64,000 nucleotides of DNA from Candidatus Zixiibacteriota bacterium (GTDB lineage Bacteria > Zixibacteria > MSB-5A5 > GN15 > FEB-12). The translations under genes and the position numbers were made by a program. The notes beneath the pieces are model-generated. The model had not been told where the DNA came from. It was given only the letters and a program-made list of their open reading frames with translations, and made no database searches. Below, piece by piece: positions 44,819 to 62,836 of the stretch (the first letter of the stretch is position 1; the number at the start of each line of letters is the position of its first letter). Location: NCBI GenBank assembly GCA_017999435.1, contig JAGNLV010000001.1, positions 32,501-96,500 on the forward strand. The letters run 5' to 3'.

Positions 44819-47038
44819 TCAGTATACATCCACCGAGCCGTCCGCCTTGAAATGCATGAGAAACAGATTGTACCGTCCGGTCTGCCGGCCCCAGGCCGGC
44901 GCGAGGTCGCCGCCGGCGCTCGGGTCGCCGTCGGCCCGCGGAATATAATAGCAAACCGCCGAATCCGACACGAATTTCACGGGCTGCGGCAGCCGCGGAT
45001 CGTTCTGATGCACGAACCGCTCGATCGAGGTCCGGCGCCACCCCGGGATCAGACCCGTCGATTCGTCGCCGTCGTACCGTCCCCAGAGGGTGACGAAGTT
45101 GTTCTCTTCCGCCAGCGAGCCGTTGATCGCCACGCTCACCTCCAGGTACCCCTGCTCCCCGATCAGCCGCCGCACCATGGAATCCGGCACCGGGATCACC
45201 GCGTATTGGCGGAATTCTTCGAGGCCCATCGGGATCAGCTGGGCGTAGTAGCGATAGGTCGGTTTGGGGTAAAAGAACTCGGCCAAGGGGGGCTGCCCGC
45301 CGACCAGCGGAATGGTGGCCTCTCCGATCTGCAGGGAGAACGTATTCCGCCGCCCGGCTCCGGAGTTGAGATCGGCCGCGACCGCGAGCATCTCGTTATC
45401 GGCCACTGGCCGCAGCGTCGAAATGTATATCCGCGTCCCCGCTTTCCTGTCGGTCGTCTCCAGCCGGCAGCCAAACTCCGCCCACTGGTTCCAGGCCAGC
45501 GCGTGCGAGGCCATGACCATCGCAACCACGGCCGCGGTTACCGCCGGAACCGTCCACGCGCCTGCCTGAAGGCGCCGGGCCACGGGGCGCAGCAGCAGGC
45601 AGATCCCGGCCAGCACGAGGAGGCTCTTGGCCGCCAGCGCGGCGACCACCAGCCCCTCGCTCAATCCGGTGCCGAACACCGCGTTGATCCAGTGGGCGTC
45701 GAATGCCAGCCCGAGGATCACCACACCCACAGCGGCGGCCGGTCGCGCCCACGCGGCGGGTGTCCGGCCCGCATAAGCCGCGGCGGTCTCGCTCGCGAGA
45801 TAGCCGAACGCCGCCATGACCATCCCCATCGCCTGGAAATTGTATCGGGACAGAGCGTGAAATACCAGATGAATCGCCGTGTAGTACAGCATGATGAAGA
45901 CAGGCCAGGCGGCCCGCCCCGGGTGCACTCTGACCAAAAGCAGCAGCCCGGCCAGACCGCCGAGAACCACCGCCAGATGCAGAAGTTCGGTGGCCGCACC
46001 GGGTAAAAGGAAACTCTTCCGAAAGTCATTGTACGGCCGCCGCCACAGGCGGTCGAATTTCTGAACCGTCAGCCCCGCAAACCCGGCCGGGTCGGCCAGG
46101 ATATCCCCCGCCACCGACCGTTCCCAGAACCCCTCCTCGACCATGTCCAGGTCATACCCCGCGTTGGGGATTGAGGTCGACTGTCGGAGGTTGGCATCGG
46201 CGTACTCGGGGTCGCGCAGCGTCACCCGGCCATAGTGGAGCGACGCGGCCGCGGTCCAGCCGACAAAGACAGCAGCCAGCGGCACGGCAAACGAAAGGGC
46301 GCGGACCGTAAAGGCCGCCCTCCCCCACACCGGGCGCGTGTAGAAATAGTACCCGAGCAGGAACGGAATCGCCAGGAGCATGGCGGTCGGCTTGTTCAGC
46401 ACGAGCGCGCCGGCCAGCAGCCCCGCCAGGACCAGAGGCCGACGGCGATTGGTCTCCACGCTGCGGATCATGAGGTAGATGGTCAGGAGGATGAGCAGGC
46501 TGGTGGAGGTCTCCAGAAGGAGCATGGTCGAGGCCAGGATGAAGGGGAAATAGACGGCGTAGATTGCGCCGGCGATCAGCGCCGCACGCCGTCCGACCAG
46601 CCGCACGCAGATCGCGATCAGCAGCACGTTGGCCAGAAGGTCGCACAGCACGCCGACTGTCCGCGCGACGGTGAAATCGGCGGCGGGGGCGGCAAAAAAT
46701 ACGGCCGCCAGCACCAGCGGATAGAGCGGCCCGCTGAAAAAAAGCTCCTCCTTCGCCTGCGTGAGCGTGTGCGGCGCGTACGACAGCCACTCGATCTGCT
46801 CCCCTTGGATGTATTTCTCGTAGTAGTGCCTGAACCGGTAGCGGTCGTCGTGCTCGGTAGCCGCCCCGGCGGGTGCCGAATGATCCACCAGCGAGATCAG
46901 GGCGAGCCCGGCCGCTGCGTAGCGCCGGGCATCCCACATCACCGGCAGCACTTCACCGAACGCGAGGTACCCCACGCGGAGGACCAGGGCGACAGCGAGG
47001 ATGGCCAGGACATATCGACGGTAGGCGGTGTCGGGCAT
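44819..47038 (-). CDS. ArnT/PMT-like membrane glycosyltransferase
   Basis: The 739-residue protein has about 12 hydrophobic segments in its first 510 residues and a soluble C-terminal part. Features include an N-terminal helix followed by an acidic loop (VMWDARRYAAAGLAL), FFSGPLYPLVLAAVFF and NKPTAMLLAIPFLLGYYF, which fit GT-C enzymes of the ArnT/dolichyl-phosphate-mannose transferase type. They move a sugar from a polyprenyl-phosphate donor to protein or lipid outside the membrane. GAGGGA lies before the ATG. It lies 15 bases after the UPF0104-type gene and 15 before the oxidoreductase. Confidence 0.85.
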   Translation of the reverse strand: MPDTAYRRYVLAILAVALVLRVGYLAFGEVLPVMWDARRYAAAGLALISLVDHSAPAGAATEHDDRYRFRHYYEKYIQGEQIEWLSYAPHTLTQAKEELFFSGPLYPLVLAAVFFAAPAADFTVARTVGVLCDLLANVLLIAICVRLVGRRAALIAGAIYAVYFPFILASTMLLLETSTSLLILLTIYLMIRSVETNRRRPLVLAGLLAGALVLNKPTAMLLAIPFLLGYYFYTRPVWGRAAFTVRALSFAVPLAAVFVGWTAAASLHYGRVTLRDPEYADANLRQSTSIPNAGYDLDMVEEGFWERSVAGDILADPAGFAGLTVQKFDRLWRRPYNDFRKSFLLPGAATELLHLAVVLGGLAGLLLLVRVHPGRAAWPVFIMLYYTAIHLVFHALSRYNFQAMGMVMAAFGYLASETAAAYAGRTPAAWARPAAAVGVVILGLAFDAHWINAVFGTGLSEGLVVAALAAKSLLVLAGICLLLRPVARRLQAGAWTVPAVTAAVVAMVMASHALAWNQWAEFGCRLETTDRKAGTRIYISTLRPVADNEMLAVAADLNSGAGRRNTFSLQIGEATIPLVGGQPPLAEFFYPKPTYRYYAQLIPMGLEEFRQYAVIPVPDSMVRRLIGEQGYLEVSVAINGSLAEENNFVTLWGRYDGDESTGLIPGWRRTSIERFVHQNDPRLPQPVKFVSDSAVCYYIPRADGDPSAGGDLAPAWGRQTGRYNLFLMHFKADGSVDVY

Positions 47039-47053
47039 CGGTGGTATGTCCCT

Positions 47054-48094
47054 CTATGTCGCCCGGCGGCCCACGGGCGATTGGCCCTCGGGTTCCGCCG
47101 CCTCCGCCTCGAGCCGGCCGAGCGAGAGATGCTCTTTCCTGAGGAAGTAGAACCCCCCGATGGTGACGACGATGTACTGGGCCGCGTGGAGCACCAGGGC
47201 GCACGAGAGCGCGGCTTCTTTGGTCACTCCGTACTGCATGAGCGACCAGACCGCCCCGAAATGGTACACCCCGACGAACCCCGGCGTCGAAGGCACGAGG
47301 ATCGAGATGGACACGACCACGAGCACGACGTACGAGGCATCGAGCGGCAGGTCGAGGCCAAAAGCCCAGAAGACGAAGATGTTCGACAGGCCCATGAGAA
47401 TCCATATCAGGAGCGTCTGGGCACTCACCGAGACGACACTCCGCCCGCGGGAGAGGAACTCCAGCCCCCGCGAGAACTTGAGGATTATCCCCCGGATCGT
47501 CTCGCGCACCCCCGCCGGCACGAAGAACAGGTAGCGCGTCAGCAACCGCCCCACCTGGGCCGGGCGGCTCGCGAGGATAGTGATGAACAGGATGCCGCCG
47601 AGCGCGATCGCAATGGCGACCCACAGACCCCGCTGCATGGTCGAGTCCATCAGGATGTGCGAGTAATAGAGGACGGCGCCGAAAATGAGCAGCAGCGCCA
47701 CCAGATCGAACACCATCCGTTCCACGAAAATGGTCGCCAGCGAGGCCGACTTGGTGATCCGCCGCTCCTGCGCCGCCAGCGAGTAGGCCCGCACGAACTC
47801 GCCCAGTCGCAGGGGGAGGACGTTGTTGGCCATGAACCCGATCCAGGTCGCCGCCAGCAGGCGCCGGAAAGGAACCTCCGCGATCGGCTCGACCATCGCC
47901 CGCCACCGCCAGGCACGCTGGTACATGGTGAGCACGATGAAGGCCACGTTCGGGAGAAGCCAGTAGTAGTTGGCCCCGCTGAGCGCCCGCGAGAGTTCGG
48001 CGAAATTGATCCGCTCCAGCAGCAGCCAGACGAGGTAGCCGGAGATGACGATTCCCACACCCGTGTAGAGGAGTTTCTTGGTTCGATGGGTCAT
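47054..48094 (-). CDS. UPF0104 / lysylphosphatidylglycerol synthase-like membrane protein
   Basis: The 346-residue protein has about eight to nine hydrophobic segments and the family block NNVLPLRLGEFVRAYSL, VERMVFDLVALL and ILVPSTPGFVGVYHFG (residues about 60-320). It belongs to the family of AglD and the membrane half of MprF; members in glycan operons are thought to move or transfer lipid-linked sugars. There is no aminoacyl-transferase domain. ATG at 48094 overlaps the GT4 stop (ATGA), so translation is coupled. Confidence 0.88.
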   Translation of the reverse strand: MTHRTKKLLYTGVGIVISGYLVWLLLERINFAELSRALSGANYYWLLPNVAFIVLTMYQRAWRWRAMVEPIAEVPFRRLLAATWIGFMANNVLPLRLGEFVRAYSLAAQERRITKSASLATIFVERMVFDLVALLLIFGAVLYYSHILMDSTMQRGLWVAIAIALGGILFITILASRPAQVGRLLTRYLFFVPAGVRETIRGIILKFSRGLEFLSRGRSVVSVSAQTLLIWILMGLSNIFVFWAFGLDLPLDASYVVLVVVSISILVPSTPGFVGVYHFGAVWSLMQYGVTKEAALSCALVLHAAQYIVVTIGGFYFLRKEHLSLGRLEAEAAEPEGQSPVGRRAT

Positions 48095-49206
48095 CGCCGC
48101 CCCTCCGCCACCCGGAGGGCGAGCGCCTCGAATTCGCGCGCCGCGTCGTCCCAGTTGAACCGGGCCGCCCACCGGAGCGCCCCCGCCTCGAGCCGCTGCC
48201 GCAGGGGGACGTCGGTCAGCACGCGCACGAGCCGCTCGGCCAGCGCGGCGATGTCGCCGTAGGGGTACAGCAGCCCGGTCTCGCCGTCACGCACGGAATC
48301 CCGCAGCCCCGGCGAATCAGCGGCCACCACGGCGGTCCCCACCGCGTTGGCTTCGATGTTGGTCAATCCCCAGCCCTCCTTGAGCGAGGGCAGCACAGCC
48401 ACGTGGGCGCGCCGCATCCGGGCCACTTTCTCTTCGAGCGGCACGTAGCCCGGAAATTCGACGTCGTCCCCCAGCCCCATCTTCGCCGCCAGCGCCCGGA
48501 GCGGCGCGAGGTAATCCCCCGTGCCCACGACCATCAGCCGGGCTCCCGGCACCCGCTCCCGGACCAGCGCCATCGCCCGCACCAGGTGCTGGACCGACTT
48601 GTACTTCTTGATCCGCCCCAGGTACAGCACGGTGGGCCGCTCGTACTTCGCCGCCGCGGGGTCGTGCGAGTAGGTGGCCGCGTCGATCCCGCAGTGGATC
48701 ACCGAGATGTCGGCGCGCGGGATGCCCCGCGCCGCCAGGTCATCCGCGGTCGACTCGGAAATCACGTTGAAGGGAAACCCGCGGTACACCCGTACGACGG
48801 GCCGTTCGGCCAGATAGATGTAGGTGGCCAGCACGGCGTTGATCTCGCGGAACACGGTCGTCGCGAACAGGTGCGGGATCACGACGAGCGTCGGCAGGCG
48901 CAGGTAGAGCGGCGTGTAGAACGGAATTTTGTTGACGTCCTCGACGAGCAGATCGAACGTCTCGGCGCGCGCCAGCCGCCGCAGGTGGAGGGGGGCGATC
49001 AGGTTGAAATTGTAGCGGTTCCCCCGGCGGACGATGCGGATCCCGGCGATGACCTCCTCCGGCTTGCCGCCGGGGTAGTTGGAGCAGAAGAGCGTGACCC
49101 GATGGCCGTAGGCGACGAGGCGGCGGAGGAGCTCTGCGAGGTGAACCTCGGCTCCGCCGGCGTAGGGATTGCTCAGGTCGTTCCAGTTGAGGGCGAGGAT
49201 ATTCAC
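48091..49206 (-). CDS. Family 4 glycosyltransferase
   Basis: The 371-residue protein has the GT-B fold of GT4 enzymes: NPYAGGAEVHLAELLRRLVAYGH at the N-terminus, PTVLYLGRIKKYKSVQHLVRAM starting the second domain, and EGWGLTNIEANAVGTAVVAADSPG, which holds the EX7E-type motif that binds the sugar nucleotide. It should add a sugar to a lipid-linked acceptor in the cytoplasm. The GTG start overlaps the DUF2723 stop by four bases. Confidence 0.93.
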   Translation of the reverse strand: MNILALNWNDLSNPYAGGAEVHLAELLRRLVAYGHRVTLFCSNYPGGKPEEVIAGIRIVRRGNRYNFNLIAPLHLRRLARAETFDLLVEDVNKIPFYTPLYLRLPTLVVIPHLFATTVFREINAVLATYIYLAERPVVRVYRGFPFNVISESTADDLAARGIPRADISVIHCGIDAATYSHDPAAAKYERPTVLYLGRIKKYKSVQHLVRAMALVRERVPGARLMVVGTGDYLAPLRALAAKMGLGDDVEFPGYVPLEEKVARMRRAHVAVLPSLKEGWGLTNIEANAVGTAVVAADSPGLRDSVRDGETGLLYPYGDIAALAERLVRVLTDVPLRQRLEAGALRWAARFNWDDAAREFEALALRVAEGRR

Positions 49207-52200
49207 CGGCCGGAATCCTTCAGGAGTTCGTCGAACGAGGCGCCGGCGTCGAGTTGGCGCAGTGCGGCGGCCAGCTGGCTATCGTCGGGGTTGAACTCCA
49301 GCCACAGGCGCAGCGCCGCTTTCATGCCCTCCAGGTCGCGCCGGGCGAAGCGCAGTCGCAACAATTCCTCGAGCGCTGTCCGGTAAGTTGTGTTGGCGCG
49401 GAGAATCGACTCCAGGGTGGCCTCCGCCTTGGCCGTGTCCCCGGCCAGCACGCAGGCGCGGGCCAAGAGGGTCTGCATCCAGTCCCGGTCGCCGACCCGC
49501 ACCGTGTCCAGCAGCGCCTCGAGGTCGCCCACCCGGACCTGCTCGGTGTAGACCGTCGCGAGAAACTCCGGCATGTCGCCGTTGTGGGGCACGAGCGCCC
49601 AGCCATGGGCCACCAGCTTCTCGGCCTCGGCCAGGCGGCCCGCCTTGCGCAGCGTGTCGGCGACCATGAGGAAGGCGTTGCCGTAGTTGGCCGTCAGACG
49701 CAGCGTCGCATCGTCCTGGTACACGGCTGGGTCGTTCACCCCGCGGGCGCGAAAGCGGTTCATGAAGAAATCTATTGAGCCTTCGACATCGACGTTGATT
49801 CGCCCGTGCGGTTCTTCGATCCGGTAGAGCAGCCCCTCCATGGTCAGCCGCGGGTCGATCGGTTCGCCGCGGAATGTCCGCGCCCCGCTGCCCACGGTCA
49901 CCGAGAAGTACATCGGCCGCCGGCCGTAGTAGCGGCCCATGAGGGCGTCGACCACCATGTCCTGCACCCGGTACCAGGTGCCGTCGGGACGGCGCTGCGA
50001 GGCCAGGCGCCCGATCTGCTCGTCCGTCCACGGCAACTCCAGCCCGAGCGTGCTCCGGATCTGCCGGATGTACCAGTCGGTGTTGGCGAGTGACAGGTTC
50101 ACGACAGTGACGTCGCGCCGCTGCCCGAACGTCTCCTGCAGACACCACAGGGGAAAAGTGTCGTTGTCGCCGTGGGTGAACAGGATGGCGTCGGGCCGTG
50201 CGGAGTCAAGCAGGTTCATGCCGTAGTCGTAGGGGATGAAATTCTCGCTCCGATCGGCATAGTGATAGTTGCCGGCGAGGGCGATCGCCGGCGCCGCGAA
50301 CAACAGCAGCGAGGCGGCCGCCGCCGCCGCGCGCACGCCGCTGCCGGCGCGCCGGGCGAGATCCCGCAGCGCGCCCGCCAAAAACGCCAGCCCCAGCCCG
50401 ATCGACATGCCGAACAGCACGAACGCGGTCGTGAAGAAATAGTCCCGGTCGCGGACTTCCAGGTAGTCCTGGCCGGTCACCGGGCTCTGCCGTGTCCCGT
50501 CGGCGAAATTCATATACAGCACCAGCCCGACCGAGGTGATCAGCAAGAGCAGCACGAGCGCGAGGCCGAGACTCGGCCGCCGCCGCACCACCTCCCAGGC
50601 GCCGAACAAACCGACCAGAATGAGCAGCACCGACTCCGGGCCCCGCAGGCCGTACTGCTCGTGGAAGAACCGCCAGAATCCCATCCGCTGGTAGTTGCCG
50701 AACTGATTTTCCCACGACCCGCGCCGGACAAACATCCGCTCCACCATCGAGATCCGCTGGTACTGCTTGCGGTCGAGGAAGTCGATCGTCTGGGCGATCG
50801 TCTGCGGGTTGTTCTCGTTGATCGCCGGCTCCCGGGCGGCCCGGACCGGCATGTAGGCGTTGATCGAAAAGCCGACCAGCGCCACCGCCAGCATCAGCAA
50901 CGCGCTCTTCCACCCCGGGAGCATGCGCGCCAGGCCCAAAAGCGCGAGCACGACCGCCGCCAGCCCGACCGCCAGGAGGAACGGCTTGACCTCGACAATG
51001 ATCGTCCCGATCGCAACAATCGCGATCAGGAACTCCCAGCGAAGATACCGGCGAAGCAGCACCAGGAGGAGCGCCCCGAGGATGACGGTGGCCAGCAGGA
51101 AGGGCTTGTAGCCTTTGAACATGAACAGCAGCGCGACCATGACGACCGCAGCGGCCACGAACCCCGCCGGCGCGAGATAGGCGCGGGCCGCCTCCCTGTC
51201 CTTCATTCGACCCCGCTTGTTCGAGTAGGACCACCCGATGTACGCGGCGCCGGCCGCCAGCGCCGCGAACGCCGCCATCCCCGCTCCGGTGAGCACCCGG
51301 CCGGCCGCCCCTTCCGATCCGGCGATCCGCGCGATCACCTCGCCCGCCAGCGGGATCATGGCTGCCAAGAACCCGACCGCGAACCAGACATGCACGCGCG
51401 GGATCCGCTCGAACGAGAACATGTACAGGTAGTAGAATGCCCCCACGATCGTCACCGGCACCCAGTAGGGCACCTCCCCCGGCCGCGAGGACAGCGCGAA
51501 GATCAAATACATCTCGAGCAGCAGGAATGCGGCCACCGTGAACCATACCCAGGCGGGGGATTCCTTTTTCAAAATGAAGAACAGCGCGACAATGGGGAGC
51601 GCCACAAACGCCATGAGGTGCACCCCCACGCCGAGCACCGACAGAAACACCGCCAGGAACATGATCCGATCCCCCGCCGGCGTTTCCTGGTGCTGCCGGT
51701 AGCGCAGCCCCAGCCAGAAAACGCACAGCATGAGGGCCATCGTCAGCCCGTACACTTCCGCCTCGACCGCGTTGTTCCAGTTGGTCAGCCCGAAAGCCGC
51801 AAAGAGCGCTCCGGCCGCCCCGCCCAGGTACACCGTCAGCCGGTCGATAACGGCCGGACCGGAGAACCACGCCCGGAGAAGGCGCACGACGATCAGGTAG
51901 GCGAACATGGCGGCGAAGGCCGAGGAGACTCCCGACAGCAGGTTCACTCGCATGGCCGGATCGGCGGCCGTCGGGAGAATGCTGAACAGCCGTCCGAGCA
52001 GCACGTACAAGGGGGAGCCGGGGGGGTGCGGGATGCCGAGGATCGACGACACGGCGATGAACTCGCCGCAGTCCCAGAACGAGAGGGTCGGCGCGACCGT
52101 GCGCGCGTACATCGCGAAAGCGACCAGCACAATCCCGGCCGCGGCGAAGGCATTGGTGCGGTCAAAACCGCATCCGTCCAGTGCTTCCGGCGGTGCGACC

Positions 52201-52280
52201 GCGAGCCCGCCCGGCGCCGTCCCGGGCACCGCGCCGTCCGCGGCGGGAGCGGCCTGCTTCGACTTGTCAGACTTGGCCAT
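49203..52280 (-). CDS. DUF2723 family membrane protein with long C-terminal region
   Basis: The 1025-residue protein starts with a low-complexity tail, then has about 15 or more hydrophobic segments to residue 670, with the DUF2723 signatures [28 protein letters not shown], a membrane-loop [20 protein letters not shown] and [16 protein letters not shown]. Residues about 860-1010 look helical and TPR-like ([41 protein letters not shown]). GT-C-like transfer of sugars from lipid carriers is the likely role; acceptor and donor are unknown. It heads the seven-gene operon and is a longer paralogue of the protein at 2184-4337. Confidence 0.88.
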   Translation of the reverse strand: [1025 protein letters not shown]

Positions 52281-52340
52281 AGGCGATTTTTGGCCGGCTG
52301 GTGTCCGGCGGATTCATCCCTTGTCCGTCAAAAACCCTTG

Positions 52341-52368
52341 AATATAACGGATTTCCGAACCGTGTAAA
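52341..52368 (-). promoter_or_regulatory. Predicted promoter of the glycan operon
   Basis: On the minus strand TTTACA (52363-52368) is followed after 16 nt by TATATT (52341-52346), about 55 nt before the DUF2723 start. Confidence 0.6.
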
Positions 52369-52419
52369 GCTTGAAACGCAGGAAACGACGGGCTCCGCGA
52401 CCGCCCGCCACCCCCCCGG

Positions 52420-53289
52420 TCAGTTAAAGGGGTTGGGATAGTTCTGACAAAGCCGGAACTCCGTAGGCGGCGGGCCCAGTACGGTCGCCGGTCCCTCCGT
52501 CTGACAGGGACCGGTTGCGCCTCTTTCTTGTGGCAAATCCGCGGCCCTGTCCGGCTGCGCGGGGGTCCAGGTGTAGTCGATCTGGTTTCGCTCATTGAGG
52601 ATTTCGGTGAGATATTCAAGGTGCACCCCCGTGGCCGTATCCTTGAGGGAGACCATGACCCAGCTTCGGTAGCTGAAAGTCCCCAATTCCGTTCCGACCT
52701 CGTTGGTGTGCCGCAGCGGGGGCAGCGGGAACAGATGCGGAAATCTCAGGATATCCCGGGTTGTGAATCGCCCCCCGGCATCGGTATACCCGTAGACGTT
52801 CGCCTCCGGATCCGGCCGCCACAACACCATGCAGATCGTATCCTGAAACAGCGGCTCCCCTGACCCACTCGCCGCGCGGAACACGCCCCGATACACGCCG
52901 TCGGGCAGCACCTCCGACCCGGCACCGGCGTTCCACGCGACCGAGTAGACACCGGCGTCGAGCGGCTGCGCCACGAGAGTGGTCTCCAGTCCGCCCGCAA
53001 GGTCGTACACTGCAAGACTCACCGAGCAGGCCTGCGGCAGATCGAACCCGATTACGGTCATAACCTGCGGCTCCATCGTTTCCCCGGCGGCGCGCCGATA
53101 AATCGGCAGACCGTCAAAAAGCGACCATATGCTCACTCTCAGATTCGGCACCGGGTCCCCCTCGACCGTCCCGGCAGTCAGCTCAAACGAGAACTCATCG
53201 TTCCATCCGGTGGCCTCGTCATCGTCCGAGCAGGAGAAGAAGGCAACTCCCGCAAGTATGAGGCCAAGCATCAGCAGACGTGTCGGCAT
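52420..53289 (-). CDS. Lipoprotein ending at a truncated sorting motif
   Basis: The 289-residue protein has a lipoprotein-like signal (hydrophobic core followed by FFSCSDDDE). The body has a FlgD-like beta domain (about 75-140: SVSLAVYDLAGGLETTLVAQPLDAG, SVAWNAGAGSEVLPDGVYRGVF) and further beta-rich sequence. It ends with FRLCQNYPNPFN and an immediate TGA, so it stops at the core motif of the type IX-like sorting domain and lacks the rest. GAGGAGGT precedes the ATG. It has its own promoter. Function unknown. Confidence 0.85.
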   Translation of the reverse strand: MPTRLLMLGLILAGVAFFSCSDDDEATGWNDEFSFELTAGTVEGDPVPNLRVSIWSLFDGLPIYRRAAGETMEPQVMTVIGFDLPQACSVSLAVYDLAGGLETTLVAQPLDAGVYSVAWNAGAGSEVLPDGVYRGVFRAASGSGEPLFQDTICMVLWRPDPEANVYGYTDAGGRFTTRDILRFPHLFPLPPLRHTNEVGTELGTFSYRSWVMVSLKDTATGVHLEYLTEILNERNQIDYTWTPAQPDRAADLPQERGATGPCQTEGPATVLGPPPTEFRLCQNYPNPFN

Positions 53290-53342
53290 ACCGACCTCCT
53301 CGGTGGGCGAATCCTGTCAGTCCCTGCTCAATTAGTAATGGA

Positions 53343-53372
53343 AGGATAACGGGCGGTCGGGAGAGGTGTCAA
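53343..53372 (-). promoter_or_regulatory. Predicted promoter of the truncated-motif lipoprotein gene
   Basis: On the minus strand TTGACA (53367-53372) is followed after 18 nt by TATCCT (53343-53348). Confidence 0.5.
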
Positions 53373-53432
53373 GGGGTGATCCGTGCGCCCTCGGATTTGA
53401 CGGGACCGTCGCCGGGACGAGCCGTGGGCTGC

Positions 53433-53465
53433 CCAAAAAAGAAAGGGCCTCGATTACTCGAGGCC
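53433..53465 (-). terminator. Intrinsic terminator without an adjacent gene
   Basis: An 8-bp stem (GGCCTCGA 53446-53453, TCGAGGCC 53458-53465) has a TTAC loop. On the minus strand it is followed by CTTTCTTTTTTGGG. No protein gene ends immediately upstream of it on that strand; it may end a small RNA or act as a second stop for the cohesin-like transcript. Confidence 0.7.
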
Positions 53466-53880
53466 TCTCTCTCCTCACCAATCGGGAAAGCTCACAAGCA
53501 GTCTAACCGCCAAGAAATACTGCTCATACTTCCATGTAGTGCGTCAGGTTGCGGGTCTGTTCGCACTACGCTACCCGATGTCTCAGATATATACAAACTC
53601 CGTGCCAATCATCGCCTGAAACGGCTATCTCTTTGTCGGTACAGATCTTACGTCAAAGCACGATTGGTCCGATCGCCCGCAGAACTGCCTTTTTCGCAAA
53701 TTCTGTCCCGGCGGTGTCGCAGAAACTGCTGTCAGTCTCAACTTGCGTCTTTTTCCTGGCGACCAGATTGGCACCGCCATCAGCCGCCCTGGAGCAGCCG
53801 TGCCCCGCATCGGTTGACTGCCGGAGGCTCGAGCCGTCGTCACGGCCGTTGAGGCGTCGTTTCCGGCGGTCGCAGCCACA

Positions 53881-53916
53881 AAAAAGAACTCTCCCCCGCC
53901 GTCGCGAGGGAGAGTT
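53881..53916 (-). terminator. Intrinsic terminator of the cohesin-like gene
   Basis: A 9-bp stem (AACTCTCCC 53887-53895, GGGAGAGTT 53908-53916) with a 12-nt loop is followed on the minus strand by CTTTTT. It lies 60 nt after the stop codon at 53977. Confidence 0.82.
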
Positions 53917-53976
53917 TCCGCAGAAAACTTTCAGTTCAGAATCGCCTGCTTAACGCCTGCTTCACGTATCGGCCGC

Positions 53977-54801
53977 TTACTTCAGCAGCATCATCTTCCG
54001 CGTTTCAGTGTTCTCGTCCGTCTGAATGCGGTAGAAGTACACGCCGCTGGCCATGCGGGAGGCGTCAAACGTCACCGCATGCTCGCCCGCGTCAAACTGG
54101 CCGTCCGCCAGCTTCACCACCTGCTGCCCCAGCACGTTGAAAATCGACAGTTCGACGTGCGACGGTTTGGGCAGGGCGAAGCTGATGGTTGTGGACGGGT
54201 TGAACGGGTTCGGGTAGTTCTGGTTCAGCGCGAACTGCTTCGGCAGATTCGCGCCGGCCGCCTCGGTCAGCGAGAACGAAACCGTCGAGAATTCCGGGTT
54301 CACGACATACTGGCCCAGCTGGCCGGCATCGTCGGTGTGGTACACGAACGTCAGCTCGTGCCCCGGGTTCTCGGTCGTGAACGTCTCGAGGGAAACGTTC
54401 TGCGCCGTCGGGTCGTCAATCCGGAACACCAGATTGGCCACCACCCCGGTCCCCGCCTCCAGATCCGGCTTGAAATCCGGGGTGATCTGCGGGAGCAGCC
54501 CGATGATGACGGTGCGGTTCTCATTGTTGATGTTCGCAATCTTCAGGTCGAAATACTCGGTGCGGGTCCCGTCGAATTCGACCGCCTGGAGCGTCACGCC
54601 CTCTGAAAACTTCAGCGGGATGTCCATGGCCGCCAGGTTGGCCTCGTTGGTTACCACGAGCGGCACCGTCACCACGTTGGCTTCGGTCTGGCTGGCAACG
54701 CTCTTCCCGACTGCGAACTGATGGGCGGACCCGGCCAGGACGAGCGCCGGCATCACCAGCACCGCGGCCGCGACCATCAGCATGTTTACGCGTTTACTCA
54801 A
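53977..54801 (-). CDS. Secreted cohesin-like protein with type IX-like sorting domain
   Basis: The 274-residue protein has a signal peptide (hydrophobic core about 6-22), a beta-rich domain (about 35-185) resembling cohesins (VVTVPLVVTNEANLAAMDIPL, KFSEGVTLQAVEFDG, GTGVVANLVFRIDD), and a complete sorting domain (about 195-274: ALNQNYPNPFNPSTTISFAL, SIFNVLGQQVVKLADG, ASGVYFYRIQTD, ending TRKMMLLK). The start is TTG at 54801, chosen because AAGGAGG precedes it by seven bases; the longer upstream frame has no such site and a foreign-looking sequence. It has its own promoter and terminator. The cohesin assignment is by pattern only. Confidence 0.82.
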   Translation of the reverse strand: MSKRVNMLMVAAAVLVMPALVLAGSAHQFAVGKSVASQTEANVVTVPLVVTNEANLAAMDIPLKFSEGVTLQAVEFDGTRTEYFDLKIANINNENRTVIIGLLPQITPDFKPDLEAGTGVVANLVFRIDDPTAQNVSLETFTTENPGHELTFVYHTDDAGQLGQYVVNPEFSTVSFSLTEAAGANLPKQFALNQNYPNPFNPSTTISFALPKPSHVELSIFNVLGQQVVKLADGQFDAGEHAVTFDASRMASGVYFYRIQTDENTETRKMMLLK

Positions 54802-54972
54802 GGTTCTACCTCCTTGGAGTTGGTTGTGTCTTTCTCCGTGACCGAGCTTCCAGATTCCTCCGTTGCGCTCCTTGCCACGTGTATCTTCCGTAACACGAAA
54901 TGCCAGCAAGCAATCGTCCGTCAGCTTGTCACTGATTTGCAGTCGGCGGTGTTCTCGTGGGGATCTGTTAAA

Positions 54973-55001
54973 TAAATACGAAATGATTCGCGATCTGTCA
55001 A
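54973..55001 (-). promoter_or_regulatory. Predicted promoter of the cohesin-like gene
   Basis: On the minus strand TTGACA (54996-55001) is followed after 17 nt by TATTTA (54973-54978). Confidence 0.65.
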
Positions 55002-55286
55002 GGCGCTTTTCCGATTTCGAATCACTCGCTTCGTCCGATTCCCTGCACAACGTCCCAGTGGGCCTGCAACCGTCCTACGATTAGTACAACGCCCGCACGG
55101 GCGTAGTTCCGCTTTTTTATAATGAATTTTCAATGAAATTTCGGGAAATCTTTTCCGGTCGCACGGCGGTCTCGCATCGCATCCGGCGCACAACCTGCGC
55201 CGTGCGGCTCCACGTTGACCCCGTTTCGCCGCCGCCCCCTCCCCCCGGTCCCTCTCCCCGCCCGCCGCAGACTCTGCGATTAGGGC

Positions 55287-55315
55287 TTGACTTCGCCCCG
55301 TCGGGGCGCAAATTT
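55287..55315 (+). promoter_or_regulatory. Possible promoter with palindrome in its spacer
   Basis: TTGACT (55287-55292) is followed after 17 nt by AAATTT (55310-55315), a weak -10. The spacer contains a palindrome, CGCCCCG-T-CGGGGCG (55294-55308), which could bind a repressor. It points to the PMT-TPR gene. Confidence 0.35.
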
Positions 55316-55356
55316 GGGTCGCCTGAAATATCGCCGACTTCAACCTGACCGGCTGA

Positions 55357-57579
55357 ATGGACACAAGGGGTCGTCCCGCCCCAGCGGAGACGGTGACCAA
55401 CAACGCGCCCGCCTCACATATGAGAGCTTTCCTCCGAACGTATAAGTACCCTCTTCTGGTGGCCGCACTCGCGGTCGCCGTGCGGTGGGTCTACCTCCTC
55501 GAGCTGGCCTCCCATCCCGGGTTCACCGTCCCCATGGTTGACGAGAAGTGGCACTGGGAGTGGGCGCGGGAGATCATTCACACGTCGTTTTTCGGCCAGG
55601 GGACCTGGTTTCGGGCGCCGCTCTATCCCTATGTCCTTGCTTTCCTGGCGTTCGTGACGGGCGAGTCGGTTTTCTGGGCGAAGTTCCTCCAGCTGCTGAT
55701 TACCGGCGGCACCGCCTTCTTCCTGGTCGGCCTTGGCGAACGGCTTTTCAGCCGACCGGTGGGCCTGCTGGCAGGCGTGGTGTACGCGGTGTACGGCACG
55801 GCCCTTTATTACGAGTCGATGTTCCTCATCTCGGTGGTCTTCCTGTTCTTCCTTGTCTGGGGAATATACCGCCTCGTCGCCTTCCGGGCCTCGGAGCGGT
55901 GGCGGTCGTGGCTTTTGACGGGGGCGGTTTTCGGGCTGGCGGCGATCAGCCGCCCCAACGTGCTTCTCGTCATCCCGCTGTTCCTGCTCTGGGTGTTCTA
56001 CGTTTCCCCCCGCCGCCAGAGATTCCTGACCCGCCTTCGCCGCCCGATCATCCTCCTGGCCGGCCTGCTTATCGTCATCCTCCCGGTGACCGTCCGCAAC
56101 CTCCTTGTCACCGGCGACTTCATCCTCATCTCCTCGCAGGGGGGCGTGAACCTCTACCTGGGCAACAACCCGCTGGCCAACGGGCTGTCGATGCAGATGG
56201 GGGAGGTGGAGCTGACCGAGGGGCTCACCTGGGACCGCTTCGCGCCCGCTGCCCACGAGGCCGCCGAGCGGCTGGCCGGCCGCCGCCTGTCCGAATCCGA
56301 ATCCTCCGACTTCTGGACGCGCCGCTCGCTGCAATTCATCAAGGACAACCCCGCGGCGTTCGCCGGGCTGGTCTGGCGCAAGACGGTGTACCTCGTGAGC
56401 GGTTTTGAGAATTCCGACAACTCCGACATCTACTACGAGCGCGGCAAGTCCTTCCTCTATTCGCTCTTGCTGTGGGACGGTCCGATCGATTTCCCCTTCG
56501 GCCTCCTGTTGCCGCTCACTCTCGCCGGCCTCTACCTGCGCCGCCGGGAGACCGACAGGCTGGCCCCGCTGTACCTCTTCCTCATCGGCTACATCCCGAC
56601 GATCGTGCTCTTTCTCGTGACCGCCCGCCACCGCCTGCCGCTGGTTCCGTTCATGATCATTCTCGCGGCGGCCGGTCTGGTGAAAGCCGTCGAGCTCACC
56701 CGCCGGCGGCGCCTGAAGGAGCTGGCGGTCGCCGGCGTCATCTTCCTGGTCCCGCTCGTGTTATGCAACCGCCTGTGGTACGACGAGGGGGGCCGCAACG
56801 AATTCCAGGTGCATTTCAACGAGGGAATCAAGTACGAGCACCTGGGCGACTACGCGGCCGCCGAGCGGGAATACCTGGCTGCCGACCGGTCGTTCGGCGG
56901 ATCGGCGGCTCTCCTGACCAACCTCGGCCGCGTACAGCACCAGTTGGGCAAGCTCGACGAGGCCGACCGGGCTTACCGGCGCGCCCTGGGTCTCGATCCC
57001 ACGTTTTACCGCGCCCTGAACAATCTCGGCCTGCTGGTGGGGGAGCGCGGTAATCTGGATTCGTCGCTCGTCCTGTTTGTCGCGGCCCGGCAGCATTACG
57101 ACAGCATGCTCGCCCGTACCAACGAACTCGGGCTGATCTACATGAATATCGGCAAAGGGCTCGAGCAGTTCGGCCGCCCCGACGTGGCGGTCGCCTATTT
57201 CGATTCCGCCGTTCACGCTGCTCCTCAGTCGCCGGAGGTCTCCTACCAGGCGGCTGCGTTTTTTGCCCGCCAGGAGCGCTACGAGTTGTCGGACTCGCTT
57301 TTCCTGCGCGGCCAGGCGCTGACCGAACCCTCCGCCGCCGACTTTTTCAACTGGGGGCTCTCGTTCATGGAGCGGAGGCGGTTCGCCGACGGCATCTACA
57401 TGCTCGACAAAGCGCTCCGGCGCGACTCCACGCTCTATCAGGCCCATTACCTGATCGCGGTCGCCTACCGCGAGGGCGGCATGCCCCCGGATTCCGTGAA
57501 CGCCCACCTGAACGCCGCTCTCCGGTCCAACCCGAACTACGAACCGGCTCTCCGCTTCCGCGAGCAGATCGGGCGCTAA
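55357..57579 (+). CDS. PMT/ArnT-like glycosyltransferase with C-terminal TPR domain
   Basis: The 740-residue protein has about ten hydrophobic segments up to residue 470, with GT-C features: an acidic loop after the first helix (TVPMVDEKWHWEWAREI), WFRAPLYPYVLAFLAFV and ISRPNVLLVIPLFLLWVF. Residues about 485-735 are a TPR array (NEGIKYEHLGDYAAAEREYLA, ALNNLGLLVGERGNLDSSL, DKALRRDSTLYQAHYLIAVA). It probably glycosylates surface proteins, with the TPR part binding partners. The ATG at 55357 has no clear ribosome binding site; an ATG at 55420 just before the first membrane helix is an alternative. Confidence 0.83.
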   Translation: MDTRGRPAPAETVTNNAPASHMRAFLRTYKYPLLVAALAVAVRWVYLLELASHPGFTVPMVDEKWHWEWAREIIHTSFFGQGTWFRAPLYPYVLAFLAFVTGESVFWAKFLQLLITGGTAFFLVGLGERLFSRPVGLLAGVVYAVYGTALYYESMFLISVVFLFFLVWGIYRLVAFRASERWRSWLLTGAVFGLAAISRPNVLLVIPLFLLWVFYVSPRRQRFLTRLRRPIILLAGLLIVILPVTVRNLLVTGDFILISSQGGVNLYLGNNPLANGLSMQMGEVELTEGLTWDRFAPAAHEAAERLAGRRLSESESSDFWTRRSLQFIKDNPAAFAGLVWRKTVYLVSGFENSDNSDIYYERGKSFLYSLLLWDGPIDFPFGLLLPLTLAGLYLRRRETDRLAPLYLFLIGYIPTIVLFLVTARHRLPLVPFMIILAAAGLVKAVELTRRRRLKELAVAGVIFLVPLVLCNRLWYDEGGRNEFQVHFNEGIKYEHLGDYAAAEREYLAADRSFGGSAALLTNLGRVQHQLGKLDEADRAYRRALGLDPTFYRALNNLGLLVGERGNLDSSLVLFVAARQHYDSMLARTNELGLIYMNIGKGLEQFGRPDVAVAYFDSAVHAAPQSPEVSYQAAAFFARQERYELSDSLFLRGQALTEPSAADFFNWGLSFMERRRFADGIYMLDKALRRDSTLYQAHYLIAVAYREGGMPPDSVNAHLNAALRSNPNYEPALRFREQIGR

Positions 57580-57653
57580 GCGCCCGGCAAGGCGGGAGGT
57601 CGGGGTCCGGGGAACGCGACATCCGAAGACTGTCGGCGCCCTGTCGTCTGCGC

Positions 57654-57682
57654 TTGACGTGTCGCCGCGCACACTTTATCCT
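57654..57682 (+). promoter_or_regulatory. Predicted promoter of the frameshifted secreted-protein gene
   Basis: TTGACG (57654-57659) is followed after 17 nt by TATCCT (57677-57682), about 45 nt before the candidate start. Confidence 0.6.
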
Positions 57683-57726
57683 TCAAGAGAGTACTCTGCC
57701 GATTTGCATAAGCAGTGGGGTCGGAG

Positions 57727-60382
57727 ATGAGCGGGAACCACCGGGGCCTAATGGCCAATTCGCGGAAACTGGGGACCAAGATCGCAGTGATGTCCGCGAC
57801 CCTGCTTCTCCCCCTCTCTTCCCATGCGCTGCAGGAGCCGTCACAGTTCATTCGCTCCGTGGCAGCGGCGGTTGCGCAGGGAGACTCTCTGCCCGACCAT
57901 TACTCCCGTACGACCACCCACATCGTCAACCAGCTCGCTCTCGGCGTCTCCAATCGCGGCGCCATCGCACAGTCGGGGCGCGACGCCTTCACCGGCGATA
58001 CCATCCTCGGTCATTGCGAGTTCCCGCGCGGGAGCAGGCGCGACTACCTGGAGCAGATCGATCTATGGCTCGGTGTCCAAGGCAGCCGCGACCCGGTTGT
58101 CTCAAACGGCTACTACTACCTTGCTGAGGAAGCGATTGCCGGAGAATGGCTCCCCTCTTCGCCGCCTGGCGAATTTGTCCGTCGGTCGATCACCGACCGT
58201 TTCGGAGGACCCGATGCGGAAGCTGTCTCTGAGGAAGACCTCCTCTGCACGTATGATGACAGCCTCGGCCTGTGGAAACTCGGGGACCACCTCGCCCCGA
58301 ATCCGCTCAGCCTCGGCGCTTTCGTCAGGCAGGCATCGTATGCATGGTCGATGACTTATGCCGAGGACTTCGCTATCGTTCGATTAGACATTCGCAATGA
58401 GGGCACTATGCTATGGCGTGAGACCTACGCCGGCCTTCACATCATACCCTCAGTTGGACTTCGCGACCCGTGCGAGGATTGTGGACCCAAATGGACAGTC
58501 TGCGGCATTCGCACTGTGGCGCCGGCGGCTTTCGGCTGCGATCACCTTGATACTCTCAATACCGCCTGGCATGCCACCGCCTCGGGCGATCCGTACGAGG
58601 GCGAGTGGCTGGAAAACCCGCTTTATGATTCTTTCAGGAAGTGCTACTACGGCTCGACCAGAGGGATCATCGGGATCCTCCCTCTGTGCGCTCCACATCC
58701 GGCTTACACCCTCCACTACAACTGGTGGGCATCGGTCCTCCATCCTGATCCGGAGGAGGGGATCTTCTCCTTCCAGCCGAGCCAAGACGCGCTCGTACCC
58801 TCGTACGTCCCGGGCTTTGTGTACGTGAACACCGACAAGAGCCGTTACCGCCTCCTGGCCGCTAACGAGGTTGATTACCCGTCTTACCAGGCGAGCCGGA
58901 TCGCGTCGACCCCCTTCAGCGGCTGGCTCCCGGTCCCTCCAGAGCTGGCCAACGCGGTCAGCAGCGGCGTGTGGCCGGAAGCCCTCCTCTCCTGGGGCCC
59001 CTTCGATGTGTCACCCGGCGGCCGGTTCTCGATCGTCTTCGCCGTCGTCGGCGGTGAAGACTTCCACACCGATCCCAGTAACTATCGCCACCTGCCCGCG
59101 CGTCCCGACCTCTATGAAGCCGGGGTCAATTTCTCCGACCTTGACCGCAACGCCCTCATGGCGCAGTGGGTTTACGACAATCCCGGGATTGACACCGACG
59201 GTGACGGCTACTCCGGCGAGTACCGGGTGTGCGTGCGTGACTCCATGCTCATTGGCGACCGGTGGGTAGTCAACAAAGCCGATACCCAGTGGTATAGGGG
59301 GGACGGCATCCCCGATTACCGGGGGGCCCTTTCGCCGCCCGCCCCGCACCTCTGGGTTACTCCAATCCACAACGGATTCCATGTACGCTTCAACGGCGAG
59401 AAGAGTGAAACCGCAAAAGACATCTTCCTCCAGCGCGTCGATTTCGAGGGGTACCGCATCTACCTCGGCCGTGACGAGCGACGCACAAGCCTCTCGGTCG
59501 TCGCTTCGTATGACCGTGAAGACTACACAAGTACATGCTTCTGGCCGATCCGGAAGGAAGTGTCACCTGGCGGCTCATGGATGAACCGTTCACCTTGTCG
59601 CTCCTGCGCTGTCTCTACGGTGCTGCTCCCGATCCCTGCGAGGATTCTACCTTCGACCCGTTAACCTTTGACCAGCTCGCCCCGTACCGGCACCCCGGCT
59701 TCCCCGACGACTCGATCTTCTGGTTTCGCATCCACGACTACAACGCCTCCTCGATGGGAGTGACTACGCCCATTCGCAAGTGTTACCCGGAGATGCCCGA
59801 TCCCCGCACTCTTCCGCCTGATTCTCTCACCCCTGAGATGTACACCGATGACGGCTATTTGAAATTCTTCGAGTACGAGTTCGAGATTGAGGGGCTCCTG
59901 CCCAGTGTCCCCTACTGGCTGAACGTCACCGCGTTTGATTTCGGCTCGCCCGCCATGGGCGTTGAGCCGCTCGAGTCCCCCCGCGACTCGGGATTGGTCA
60001 AAGCATTCCCCCTGCATGAATGGGAGGCCCCGATCTCCGGATCTGATCGCATCTATGTCTTCCCCAACCCCTACCGCACCGATGCCGGGTATCGCGACCA
60101 GGGGTTCGAGGGCCGCAATCAGAACGACCGCTGGGATGAGCGCGTCCGGGCGATCTGGTTCGCCAACCTGCCGCCCATATGCACGATTCACATTTTCACG
60201 CTCGACGGCGATCGCGTCCGCACCCTCGATCACGACATGAGCCGGCCGATCCGGCTCACCGCCGGCAGAAGTGGGACTTGATCAACCGGAACTATCAGAA
60301 GGTCGAGACCGGCCTGTACTATTGGGTGGTCGAGATCCCCGGTGAACCCACCCAGATCGGCAAACTGGCGATCATTCGATGA
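57727..60382 (+). pseudogene. Large secreted protein gene broken by two frameshifts
   Basis: Three consecutive reading frames make one protein of about 880 residues: signal peptide, a long body with SRTTTHIVNQLALGVSNRGAI and GIDTDGDGYSGEY (a dockerin-like segment), and a C-terminal sorting-like domain (YVFPNPYRTDAGY, IWFANLPP, GLYYWVVEIPGEP). Frame 1 is lost at 59529-59532, where one A seems missing (ACA-AG-TAC for ACA-AAG-TAC); the next frame begins KYMLLADPEG. A second one-base loss near 60262-60275 shifts again before KWDLINRN. Both shifts are in the same direction. The gene is either decaying or affected by sequencing errors. Start at 57727 or 57751 is uncertain. Confidence 0.8.
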
Positions 60383-60596
60383 CAAGGGCAGACGAGGCGA
60401 GTGATCAAGGATCGTGTGATAGCGCTGCGAAAGGAGCGCGTAGGGCAGAACCCCTGCGGTTTTGACATTGGCCGGGCCCCGCGAGCACTTAGAGCATAGT
60501 AGGCCGGGTTCCGAGGGTCGAAGGGACCGGGGAACCCGACAGCAAGAGACTGCGCCGAACGGCCGAGGCACATTGCCATCTATAGTGCGCGTCGGA

Positions 60597-61382
60597 CTAG
60601 TACGCGATCTCGAACTCCACGCCCCCCGATGCCACACTAATACCGTCCGCCCCGATCCCGAACAGCGTCCACCAGTAGGTCCCCGGGGGCAGGCTATCAA
60701 CCTCCATACGATAGTAGTAGTAGTACATGGATGAGGAATCCGGCGCCAGCGGCAACTCGGTCGCACCCGTGCGCCCGAGGTACAATGATTTCCGACCGCT
60801 CTCAGCCGGCTGGAACAGCCACACGACGTACGACTCCGCGCCCGGATAGGGTTGATAGGCCAGCGTTGGCCGTGCGGTCGAAAGCGTGTCGTAATCAAGC
60901 GGGCTGGTGACGGCGATACGGCCCCAGTCCGAGGCTACGTCGAGCGGCACCAGGGAAATGATCTCGGAGGGCCGGCTCTCCCGTCCCTCGTCCATGGCAG
61001 TGACATAGAACCAGTTTGGCTCCAGGAGTCCGGAGTCGAAGGGAACATCTACGCTGCCCGGCGGCGGCGGAACATCCCCGGGTTCGCCCCCCTTTGGATT
61101 GCCGGTCCCGGCGGCCGGCTGCAGCGTTTTCACCTTCACCGGGGCGAATGAGCCGTCGCCGATCTTGCGATAGATCAGGAACGAATCTATCGACGCCGGA
61201 TCCGGGTGTTCGAACCAGACACTGATACTCGCCGGCCAGGTCAAACCGCCCTGCAACATTCCCACGACGCGGGAGGGCGGCTCCGGTCCGACGTCAGCCG
61301 ACTCCTCCGGCCCCGACCCGCATCCCGACCAAGGCACGCCAATCAGCAATCCTGCTGAGAGAACGATCAGACGCTTCCACAT
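60597..61382 (-). CDS. Lipoprotein with fibronectin-like beta domains
   Basis: The 261-residue protein has a lipoprotein signal (hydrophobic core, then PWSGCGSG, Cys at about 21). The body has fibronectin type III-like segments: SISVWFEHPDPASIDSFLIYRKI with SGLLEPNWFYVTAMDEGRESRPS, then RPTLAYQPYPGAESYVVWLF with SLPPGTYWWTLFGIGADG. It is probably a surface or periplasmic lipoprotein. AGGAGG is spaced seven bases before the ATG at 61382; the longer frame upstream is arginine-rich and unlikely. A promoter-like pair lies about 220 bases upstream. Confidence 0.82.
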   Translation of the reverse strand: MWKRLIVLSAGLLIGVPWSGCGSGPEESADVGPEPPSRVVGMLQGGLTWPASISVWFEHPDPASIDSFLIYRKIGDGSFAPVKVKTLQPAAGTGNPKGGEPGDVPPPPGSVDVPFDSGLLEPNWFYVTAMDEGRESRPSEIISLVPLDVASDWGRIAVTSPLDYDTLSTARPTLAYQPYPGAESYVVWLFQPAESGRKSLYLGRTGATELPLAPDSSSMYYYYYRMEVDSLPPGTYWWTLFGIGADGISVASGGVEFEIAY

Positions 61383-61837
61383 GAGCTGTCCTCCTGGGCG
61401 AGACGCCCCGCGAACTTTCGTACCGGCGCCGCCGGCCGCGCGCCGGCCCCCCGGGGTTCGAGAGGCGCGGCCGGCTCCGAAGCATGTCCCGCGGCGCAGA
61501 CCGCAGCCGGGCTGAGTGAATCTCGGAGCGGTTCGGCGAAACCGACACCAACCCTGCGGCGGCTGTTTCCCGGCTGCCGGGTGCCGCCATGTCCGCCGCA
61601 ACCTACCAATCGCCGACAAGTTTGTCAACGACTCTTCCGGTCGGCGTCCCGCCAATGCCGGCGGGTTTCCTTCCCCTCGCCGGCCGGGCCGCAGATAGTC
61701 GCCGCCGGTGCGCGTATAGTTTGCAGGATGCCCGACTCCCCGGCAGCTGACCGCGCAGCTTATTCATCCGGCGCGGCCAGTCGCCGGCGGTGACACAGAT
61801 CCGACGCCGCCCGACGATTGCGGGCGGCTCCCGCCGC
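61383..61837. other. Intergenic region, no gene seen
   Basis: No supported gene. It includes the leader and promoter of the lipoprotein gene (61600-61628) and the sequence after the REC-GGDEF-like gene's stop, which has no clear terminator. Confidence 0.4.
61600..61628 (-). promoter_or_regulatory. Predicted promoter of the fibronectin-like lipoprotein gene
   Basis: On the minus strand TTGACA (61623-61628) is followed after 17 nt by TAGGTT (61600-61605). Confidence 0.55.
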
Positions 61838-62836
61838 CTAGTACTTCCCGCGCCGCTCCACCATGTAATTCGATCCGGCTTTCTGCTTGGTCGCTTTCTT
61901 GAGGTCGGCCAGCATTTTCGCCATCTCCCCGATGTGCGCGAAAGTCCCGTTCCTATTGAGCAGCACCGCGATCGACACCGTGAGCAGCGGGAAATTCTCA
62001 ATCTCGCCGCGCCGACTCTTGGTGGTGATGTACCCCCGCTCCCGATCCTCCTCCTCGTAGCAAAACCGAATGAGCGTGTCGAATGTCCGGATCACCGCCT
62101 GGCACACGCGCTCCACCTGGTCGACCGGGACCATGAAGATGAAATCGTCGCCGGCGATGTGTCCGACAAACCCGCCGTCGCACAGGTCGCAGACGGCGTC
62201 CTTGACCACGCGCGCGGTGAGCTGGATGACCTTGTCCCCCCGGTAGTATCCGTAGTAGTCGTTGTAGGCTTTGAAATTATCCAGGTCGACATAGCCGACC
62301 GCGAACTCCGCCTGCATCTCGAGCATGCGCTGGATTTCCCGCTCGATGATTGCGGGCCCGGGCAGCCGCGTCGAGGGGTTGATCGACAGGTCGCGGCGGC
62401 TGCGCTCGATCGCGGTCCTGATCCGCACTTTGACGAGCTTGTCCCGCCATTCCCCGTAGATGAAGTCCTCCGCCCCCTGTTCGTAGGCGGCCACCATGAC
62501 GTCGGTCGGCGGGTCCGGGTGGTAGACGATGACCGGGATGATGGAGAGAAAGACGTTGTCCTTGATCGCTCGGATCATTTCCACTTCGACCGTCAGGTCG
62601 TAGCGGCTGGCGATGACGATGGCGTCGACGGGAAAGCGATGGCAGATGGTCAGCAGCGTTTCGACCGAGCCGAAGTAATGGAAGGACACCTCCTGACCGG
62701 CGAAAAACTGCCGAAGGTGGAAATCGAGGTCGACCCCAACCTGCTTGACCGCAAAGTGGTAGGTGGGCCGTTTCGGAGCCTCACTGGTCTTTGGGCCGGG
62801 CCAGCTCCCGAGGATGGTACTTTCGATGCTCCGCAA
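61838..62836 (-). CDS. Receiver-like plus GGDEF-like protein with degenerate motifs
   Basis: The protein has a receiver-like domain (DAIVIASRYDLTVEVEMIRAI, VIVYHPDPPTDVMVAAYEQGAEDFIYGEW) followed by a GGDEF-like domain (FAVGYVDLDNFKAYNDYYGYYRGD, then HIAGDDFIFMVP). The phospho-acceptor aspartate position holds Ala/Ser and the signature reads AGDDF, so both regulation by phosphorylation and cyclase activity are doubtful. The start is uncertain: the TTG at 62836 is used because it is the last in-frame start codon before the domain; an ATG at 62890 is possible. Either lies inside the end of the xerD-like gene. Confidence 0.75.
   Translation of the reverse strand: MRSIESTILGSWPGPKTSEAPKRPTYHFAVKQVGVDLDFHLRQFFAGQEVSFHYFGSVETLLTICHRFPVDAIVIASRYDLTVEVEMIRAIKDNVFLSIIPVIVYHPDPPTDVMVAAYEQGAEDFIYGEWRDKLVKVRIRTAIERSRRDLSINPSTRLPGPAIIEREIQRMLEMQAEFAVGYVDLDNFKAYNDYYGYYRGDKVIQLTARVVKDAVCDLCDGGFVGHIAGDDFIFMVPVDQVERVCQAVIRTFDTLIRFCYEEEDRERGYITTKSRRGEIENFPLLTVSIAVLLNRNGTFAHIGEMAKMLADLKKATKQKAGSNYMVERRGKY

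Follow-up and report, generated by a model that had tools for sequence, protein, structure and literature searches.

Anchoring scaffoldins of the OlpA/ScaJ type (C. thermocellum, A. cellulolyticus) present one cohesin at the cell surface, on an anchor of SLH repeats. Single-cohesin anchors of this sort are known from cellulosomes (parts of PMC3413522), and related complexes that hold peptidases have been proposed elsewhere. For freshwater Planctomycetes (Nemodlikiaceae), the excerpted text of PMC6461901 proposes a surface-held, non-cellulosomal cohesin–dockerin peptidase complex, the 'planctosome', which is likewise a hypothetical model. In Candidatus Stygibacter (Cloacimonadota), going by the portions of PMC8542988 at hand, C-terminal dockerins sit on peptidases (S8/S53, C25) and on glycoside hydrolases, and the cohesin protein has, at its C-terminus, a conserved domain for attachment to the surface. 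Since proteolytic surface cohesin–dockerin complexes have been proposed twice and single-cohesin anchors are known, the general kind of system that concerns us here is a known one. Our subject is a gene in a 64,000-nucleotide stretch of DNA (hereafter the window; positions 32,501 to 96,500 of contig JAGNLV010000001.1, assembly GCA_017999435.1) from a Candidatus Zixiibacteriota bacterium, which we take to be a member of the FCB group. On balance, its product, P0004, is probably a monovalent cohesin, anchored through the type IX secretion system (T9SS), that docks proteins with LFRGG-type dockerins, many of them proteases, and that is OlpA-like in function.

P0004 is read from the minus strand; the plus strand over the same positions does not encode it. 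The earlier note on this DNA, made from the sequence alone, had described a cohesin-like domain together with a surface sorting domain, and both parts of that description hold up. The tail matches T9SS sorting families in the Pfam and NCBIfam scans (PF18962, E 8e-13; TIGR04183, E 1e-14), and the genome (7 contigs totalling 3.5 Mb, completeness 98%) encodes SprA, at 588 bits, as well as the sortase PorU, at 638 bits, the combination of C-terminal sorting domain and machinery that marks a protein as T9SS type A cargo. The cohesin relation, by comparison, is visible by fold only. A PDB search with a profile of P0004 gave no match at E ≤ 1, a search with the single sequence gave weak matches over the tail region alone (E 0.3–1), and the Pfam cohesin family PF00963 aligns to residues 43–141 with 15.4 bits (E 0.022), under the Pfam cut-off of 24.1; the same family scores 26.0 and 27.0 bits at places that coincide with the P0004 relatives of two other genomes (G005 and G059). 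Using an alignment of homologues from 32 loci (L112-L143; 23 from Candidatus Zixiibacteriota/GN15, 2 from Calditrichota/Calditrichaeota, 1 from the FCB group and 6 recorded as 'bacterium' only), AlphaFold2 (AF2) yielded a model of the cohesin domain with pLDDT 90.5 and pTM 0.85. Foldseek against the PDB places cohesins at ranks 1–17 (best E 6e-6, TM 0.58), and in VIA-align rows 1–43 are all cohesins, led by 5nrm_A (Z 13.9, rmsd 2.3, 132 residues), with the first different fold at row 44 (Z 10.7). The predicted domain, by all three methods, is a cohesin jelly-roll; the earlier note had let its proposal hang on such a model, and a model without the cohesin fold is not what was obtained.

The top fold matches are mainly type I cohesins, and the close ones include the anchoring cohesins of OlpA (3ul4, at a sequence identity of 9%) and OlpC (4dh2). 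Cohesins that, like P0004, stand outside cellulosomes are also among the matches, namely those of Archaeoglobus fulgidus (2xdh) and Clostridium perfringens (2jh2, 2vo8), at VIA-align rows 11, 28 and 25, respectively. Presumably neither of these is anchored through a T9SS, and we assume that their cargo differs from that described below.

Conservation within the family bears on whether the domain still binds dockerins. Over 33 rows, eleven residues are nearly or fully invariant by column conservation (A35, D37, P39, T56, R57, F61, D62, I68, N70, G78 and Q82), and several of them would lie, by topology, on strands that form the dockerin face, the strands having been assigned by eye. These positions, and the fact that none of the four dockerin-less genomes discussed below keeps a P0004 relative, make it quite improbable in our judgement that the domain is by now a purely structural beta-sandwich, its dockerin binding lost, in a small surface protein of other function, even though such a loss would agree with the subthreshold PF00963 score of P0004, with the finding that PF00963 reaches E ≤ 0.01 in only 8 of 33 family members, and with the presence of a P0004-type domain at a possible spacer site in seven proteases. 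The features of the window on which the argument draws are collected in Table 1.

Table 1. Coordinates of P0004 and of the dockerin proteins in the window, counted from its first nucleotide.
Feature	Position	Strand	Description and evidence
P0004	53977..54801	minus	274 aa, TTG start; signal peptide (by eye), cohesin domain and T9SS type A tail
P0004 cohesin domain	54265..54732	minus	residues 24-179; AF2 model, Foldseek, VIA-align; PF00963 subthreshold
P0004 T9SS type A sorting tail	53989..54216	minus	residues 196-271; PF18962, TIGR04183
P0001	5589..6584	plus	signal peptide by eye; two dockerin-like pairs, not C-terminal; PF00404 E 1e-7, 2 stretches
P0001 dockerin-like pairs	about 5688-5858 (weak), 6054-6227 (LFRGG in first repeat)	plus	home-made profile
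P0002	23689..25704	minus	MXAN_6640-type HExxH metalloprotease, NF045524 E 8.5e-64
P0002 C-terminal LFRGG dockerin	about 23701-23895	minus	PF00404 E 2e-6
P0003	40403..40915	plus	short protein, signal peptide by eye; C-terminal LFRGG dockerin; PF00404 E 1e-11
P0003 dockerin	about 40718-40906	plus	PF00404, PDB dockerins, AF2 model and Foldseek

Three secreted proteins of the window, P0001, P0002 and P0003, pass the Pfam cut-off for PF00404, a family of two calcium-loop/helix repeats, so that the dockerins which the earlier note had read in them are borne out. The accompanying description, paired motifs ending LFRGG(x)AP, suits P0002 and P0003 and fails for P0001, where the LFRGG dockerin lies mid-protein, the second repeat closes with LFHPG, and upstream there is a further dockerin-like pair, a weaker one. 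For the dockerin of P0003, the closest sequence match in the PDB is the CelS dockerin (E 6e-7); its model (pLDDT 90.2) retrieves dockerins at all of Foldseek ranks 1–33, with parvalbumin and S100 appearing from rank 39 on at E > 3, and is distinct in fold from other EF-hands. In the predicted models, P0004 and the P0003 dockerin both show the expected fold, cohesin and dockerin. A fourth dockerin, claimed for the broken gene at 57727-60382 (plus strand), was rejected: no Pfam or NCBIfam family reaches E ≤ 1 in its first open piece (57727-59664), and a home-made dockerin profile finds, at E ≤ 10, no open reading frame (ORF) of the window of at least 60 aa beyond P0001–P0003. That gene contains a DGDG stretch, which neither Pfam nor the home-made profile takes for a dockerin, and changes frame near 59,600, 59535-60281 going on in another frame. 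We note in addition two ORFs of the window with traces of a T9SS tail: one beside P0002 on the opposite strand (21474-23237, plus) has a complete-looking tail, and one at 52420-53289 (minus) ends directly after NYPNPFN, the start of such a tail, as if the rest had been lost by a frame change or stop.

At the scale of the genome, for which the earlier note had proposed a count of both domain types, dockerins are numerous. At E ≤ 1e-3, PF00404 is matched 60 times, and the stretches around these matches hold at least 71 distinct dockerin-bearing ORFs, some of them incomplete at the edge of their stretch; on the cohesin side there are 14 places of the P0004 type and, outside that type, L021, all described below. 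A family scan covered 70 of the 71 ORFs, a 3135-aa ORF being left out for its size, and the results given here are those for 25 of 90 Pfam and 25 of 36 NCBIfam families. These include subtilases (6 ORFs), M14 (2), M28 (2), M6 (3) and TSP3 (9), as well as PF00404 itself, at E 1e-5, in 30 of the 70; among the 25 of 90 listed Pfam families, peptidases are present and no glycoside hydrolase is found. An Omp28-related selenoprotein model matches 12 of the 70.

In 64 of the 71 ORFs (69 of 77 rows before overlaps were removed) the dockerin ends at most 8 residues from the C-terminus, much as a sorting tail would, and one could accordingly read these domains as calcium-stabilised C-terminal tails that serve stability or sorting and bind no cohesin. 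We consider this very improbable, on the strength of the sequences themselves and of the absence of cohesins from the four genomes that lack dockerins. The sequences, 71 distinct ones from the genome itself among 79 rows of the alignment (75 having no more than 8 gaps), were taken from regions chosen by Pfam matches and are therefore not a random sample. Outside the calcium ligands, T (63 and 60 of 71 in the two repeats), F (64 and 66), R (63 and 60) and GG are kept in both repeats; LFRGG is thus present twice and is therefore more than a terminal signal. Furthermore, the two repeats of one dockerin agree above shuffled pairs at loop positions 9, 11, 14, 20 and 22 (Bonferroni correction over 26), with agreement at position 9 in 26 of 71 dockerins versus 10.4 expected. 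After a 75% identity cut (n = 61), positions 9, 14 and 22 survive correction; position 14 survives at 60% (n = 36) and position 22 at 50% (n = 18), while position 11, which we take to adjoin the classical dockerin recognition pair, is significant in the full set only. The dockerins thus have near-symmetric recognition positions, a signal that becomes weaker once similar rows are removed. As far as an alignment can indicate, this symmetry is what dockerins with two equivalent faces for binding show, and it would speak against tails without a partner.

The genome has cohesins besides P0004. Searched with a profile of the P0004-type domain, it shows 14 matching places, with no protein matched twice, and at nine of them a dockerin comes directly after the cohesin within one protein. 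These nine proteins are L157, L067 and seven proteases, of which three are subtilases and the others a papain, a trypsin-like protein, a C39-like protein and L156, the last appearing zinc-protease-like from a motif read by eye. Six of the seven proteases have a PKD domain according to Pfam, and L156 has one by eye; in the six of them that were scanned, the cohesin domain goes unrecognised by Pfam, and the dockerins of L014 and L015 (no Pfam match at E ≤ 1) and of L064 (below the cut-off) were recognised by the home-made profile. L157 (269 aa; L157:601-1407, C4:116900-117706) consists of a cohesin-like domain then a dockerin, with no enzyme, and is a possible minimal adaptor, judging from its domain order. 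In L067, a P0004-type cohesin and a dockerin are followed by a T9SS tail, and such tails occur in five of the 14 proteins altogether (P0004, L010, L011, L016 and L067). A lone P0004-type cohesin without tail or dockerin is encoded by a 215-aa ORF (L013:856-1500, on C4); ORFs of similar length were matched in many relatives. Outside the P0004-type subfamily, L021 (880 aa; L021:416-3055, about C2:393415-396054) has two PF00963 stretches above the Pfam cut-off (28.8 bits), a T9SS tail and, internally, a weak match to dockerins, and L021-like proteins with cohesin, dockerin and T9SS tail are found in relatives (L149, L152 and L153). No tandem-cohesin array longer than the two stretches of L021 turned up, in a genome that was not read whole. 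In one relative (G090, contig C11), a cohesin match lies inside a frame given as open over 24,197 aa.

Because the same cohesin subfamily precedes dockerins in nine proteins, uptake could occur either in cis, the protein capping itself, or in trans, giving a chain. Carried further, this would allow a self-extending chain of proteases without a classical scaffoldin, rooted in P0004, which we regard as unlikely. Its links would be the proteases and the 269-aa adaptor, each with one cohesin then one dockerin, and the dockerin proteins that show no cohesin, about 60 in number, would be its caps.

Relatives of P0004 are widespread. They occur in 55 of 61 close genomes (its own included), at E ≤ 1.7e-26 and in an ORF of 236–365 aa, and in a set of 110 genomes of the phylum, each at least 80% complete, the family profile matches 90 at E ≤ 1e-12; 81 of these matches are strong (< 1e-20) and 9 are weak, and the weak ones may, by their sequence scores, be other family members. 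Across the same set, dockerins occur in 106 genomes (PF00404 at E ≤ 1e-3, at most 52 candidates per genome being scored) and PF00963 cohesins at E ≤ 1e-3 in 100, above the Pfam cut-off in 93. The four genomes without dockerins (G065, G104, G105 and G106) have neither a PF00963 match nor a P0004 relative, and 105 of the 106 dockerin-bearing genomes have one or both, G096 having neither (Fisher p 9e-7, kinship ignored). As seen through these profile searches, the co-occurrence fits a shared cohesin–dockerin system. The surroundings of P0004 also recur among its relatives' loci, the divergent gene upstream (55357-57579) in 13 of the 32; other neighbours that recur at those loci (OPT transporter-, ThiI- and Mla-like by eye) were not found in the window stretch 46001-62800.

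The reading we favour, P0004 as a monovalent docking protein at the cell surface, builds on the cohesin and dockerin folds, the T9SS tail, the core secretion machinery, conservation through the phylum and co-occurrence. From the tail together with SprA and PorU we infer that P0004 would be exported, cross the outer membrane through type IX secretion and stay attached at the surface by means of its C-terminal tail. In that position, its one cohesin, type I-like, would bind secreted proteins in a calcium-dependent manner through the LFRGG dockerins at their C-termini; both this binding and the choice of dockerins are predicted from the two domain types. The result would be that part of the exo-proteome, including many proteases, is held at the cell. 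P0004 is in this respect a candidate partner, not necessarily the sole one, and L021, as a multi-cohesin T9SS protein, and the cohesin–dockerin proteases probably share the docking work.

Several observations weigh against the favoured reading. The Foldseek TM-scores between the P0004 model and cohesins are moderate (0.38–0.62, normalised by the model), and a collagen-binding domain appears at rank 18, after which the matches are mostly cohesins again. The dockerin symmetry at loop position 9 weakens as similar sequences are removed, to p 0.011 with an identity limit of 60% (n = 36), and loses significance with one of 50% (n = 18). One cohesin module in P0004 stands against at least 71 dockerin-bearing ORFs, and a dockerin gene lies near P0004 in 6 of 32 loci only, so that a conserved gene-neighbour link between the two was rejected. 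The four dockerin-less genomes fall into two lineages (families f6 and f16), and about two independent events therefore lie behind the co-occurrence; the pattern in f6 and f16 may have arisen via general loss of secreted proteins, and G107 of f16 retains one weak dockerin and two cohesin matches. Finally, 16 of the 106 dockerin-bearing genomes, some of them incomplete, have no P0004 relative at E ≤ 1e-12, and all eight f14 and f15 genomes are without one; P0004 is therefore not required for dockerins.

Given these 16 genomes and the other cohesins, P0004 as the sole dockerin partner was rejected. A rival explanation is that P0004 has another ligand, or one dockerin reserved for it, and that cohesins of the L021 type and those borne by proteases hold most LFRGG dockerins. 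The two stretches and T9SS tail of L021, the similar proteins of relatives and the PF00963 matches in 15 of the 16 genomes would all suit this explanation, which we nevertheless find doubtful: the dockerin-bearing genomes G069-G071, of the same family as the genome studied here, have a P0004 relative and no PF00963 match at E ≤ 1e-3, and P0004 relatives extend over most of the phylum, a breadth traced for P0004 alone, hence giving no comparison with other cohesins. Of the non-cellulosomal system that the earlier note had sketched, the folds, the T9SS tail with SprA and PorU, and the co-occurrence across the phylum stand, and the fourth dockerin gene finds no support.

Set beside OlpA and ScaJ, P0004 would resemble them in placing one cohesin on a surface anchor and differs from them in the anchor itself, a T9SS tail in place of SLH repeats, and in a cargo that includes many proteases, with no glycoside hydrolase among the listed families. 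The planctosome, according to the excerpts of PMC6461901, also has an adaptor with both cohesin and dockerin, as here, whereas its anchor is a 2,210-aa lamin-tail protein and the one described here is a 274-aa T9SS-tailed cohesin with relatives phylum-wide. The corresponding portions of PMC8542988 describe for Ca. Stygibacter a single scaffoldin of 3,755 aa that carries tandem cohesins as well as carbohydrate-binding modules, in contrast to the single-cohesin anchor and cohesin–dockerin proteases found here. Our literature search returned no paper joining Zixibacteria or Zixiibacteriota with dockerin, and a term search of the main text of PMC11557425 gave no Zixi- mention. As far as the literature was searched, what is new is a T9SS-anchored monovalent cohesin across most of a phylum, alongside cohesin–dockerin proteases. 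Those proteases raise the question of whether enzymes link up with one another in the absence of a scaffold. If P0004 binds these dockerins, it would offer small testable protein pairs, among them perhaps a new orthogonal one with which to assemble proteins, and an uncultured phylum would hold much of its secreted proteolytic equipment at the surface via cohesin and dockerin, delivered by type IX secretion.
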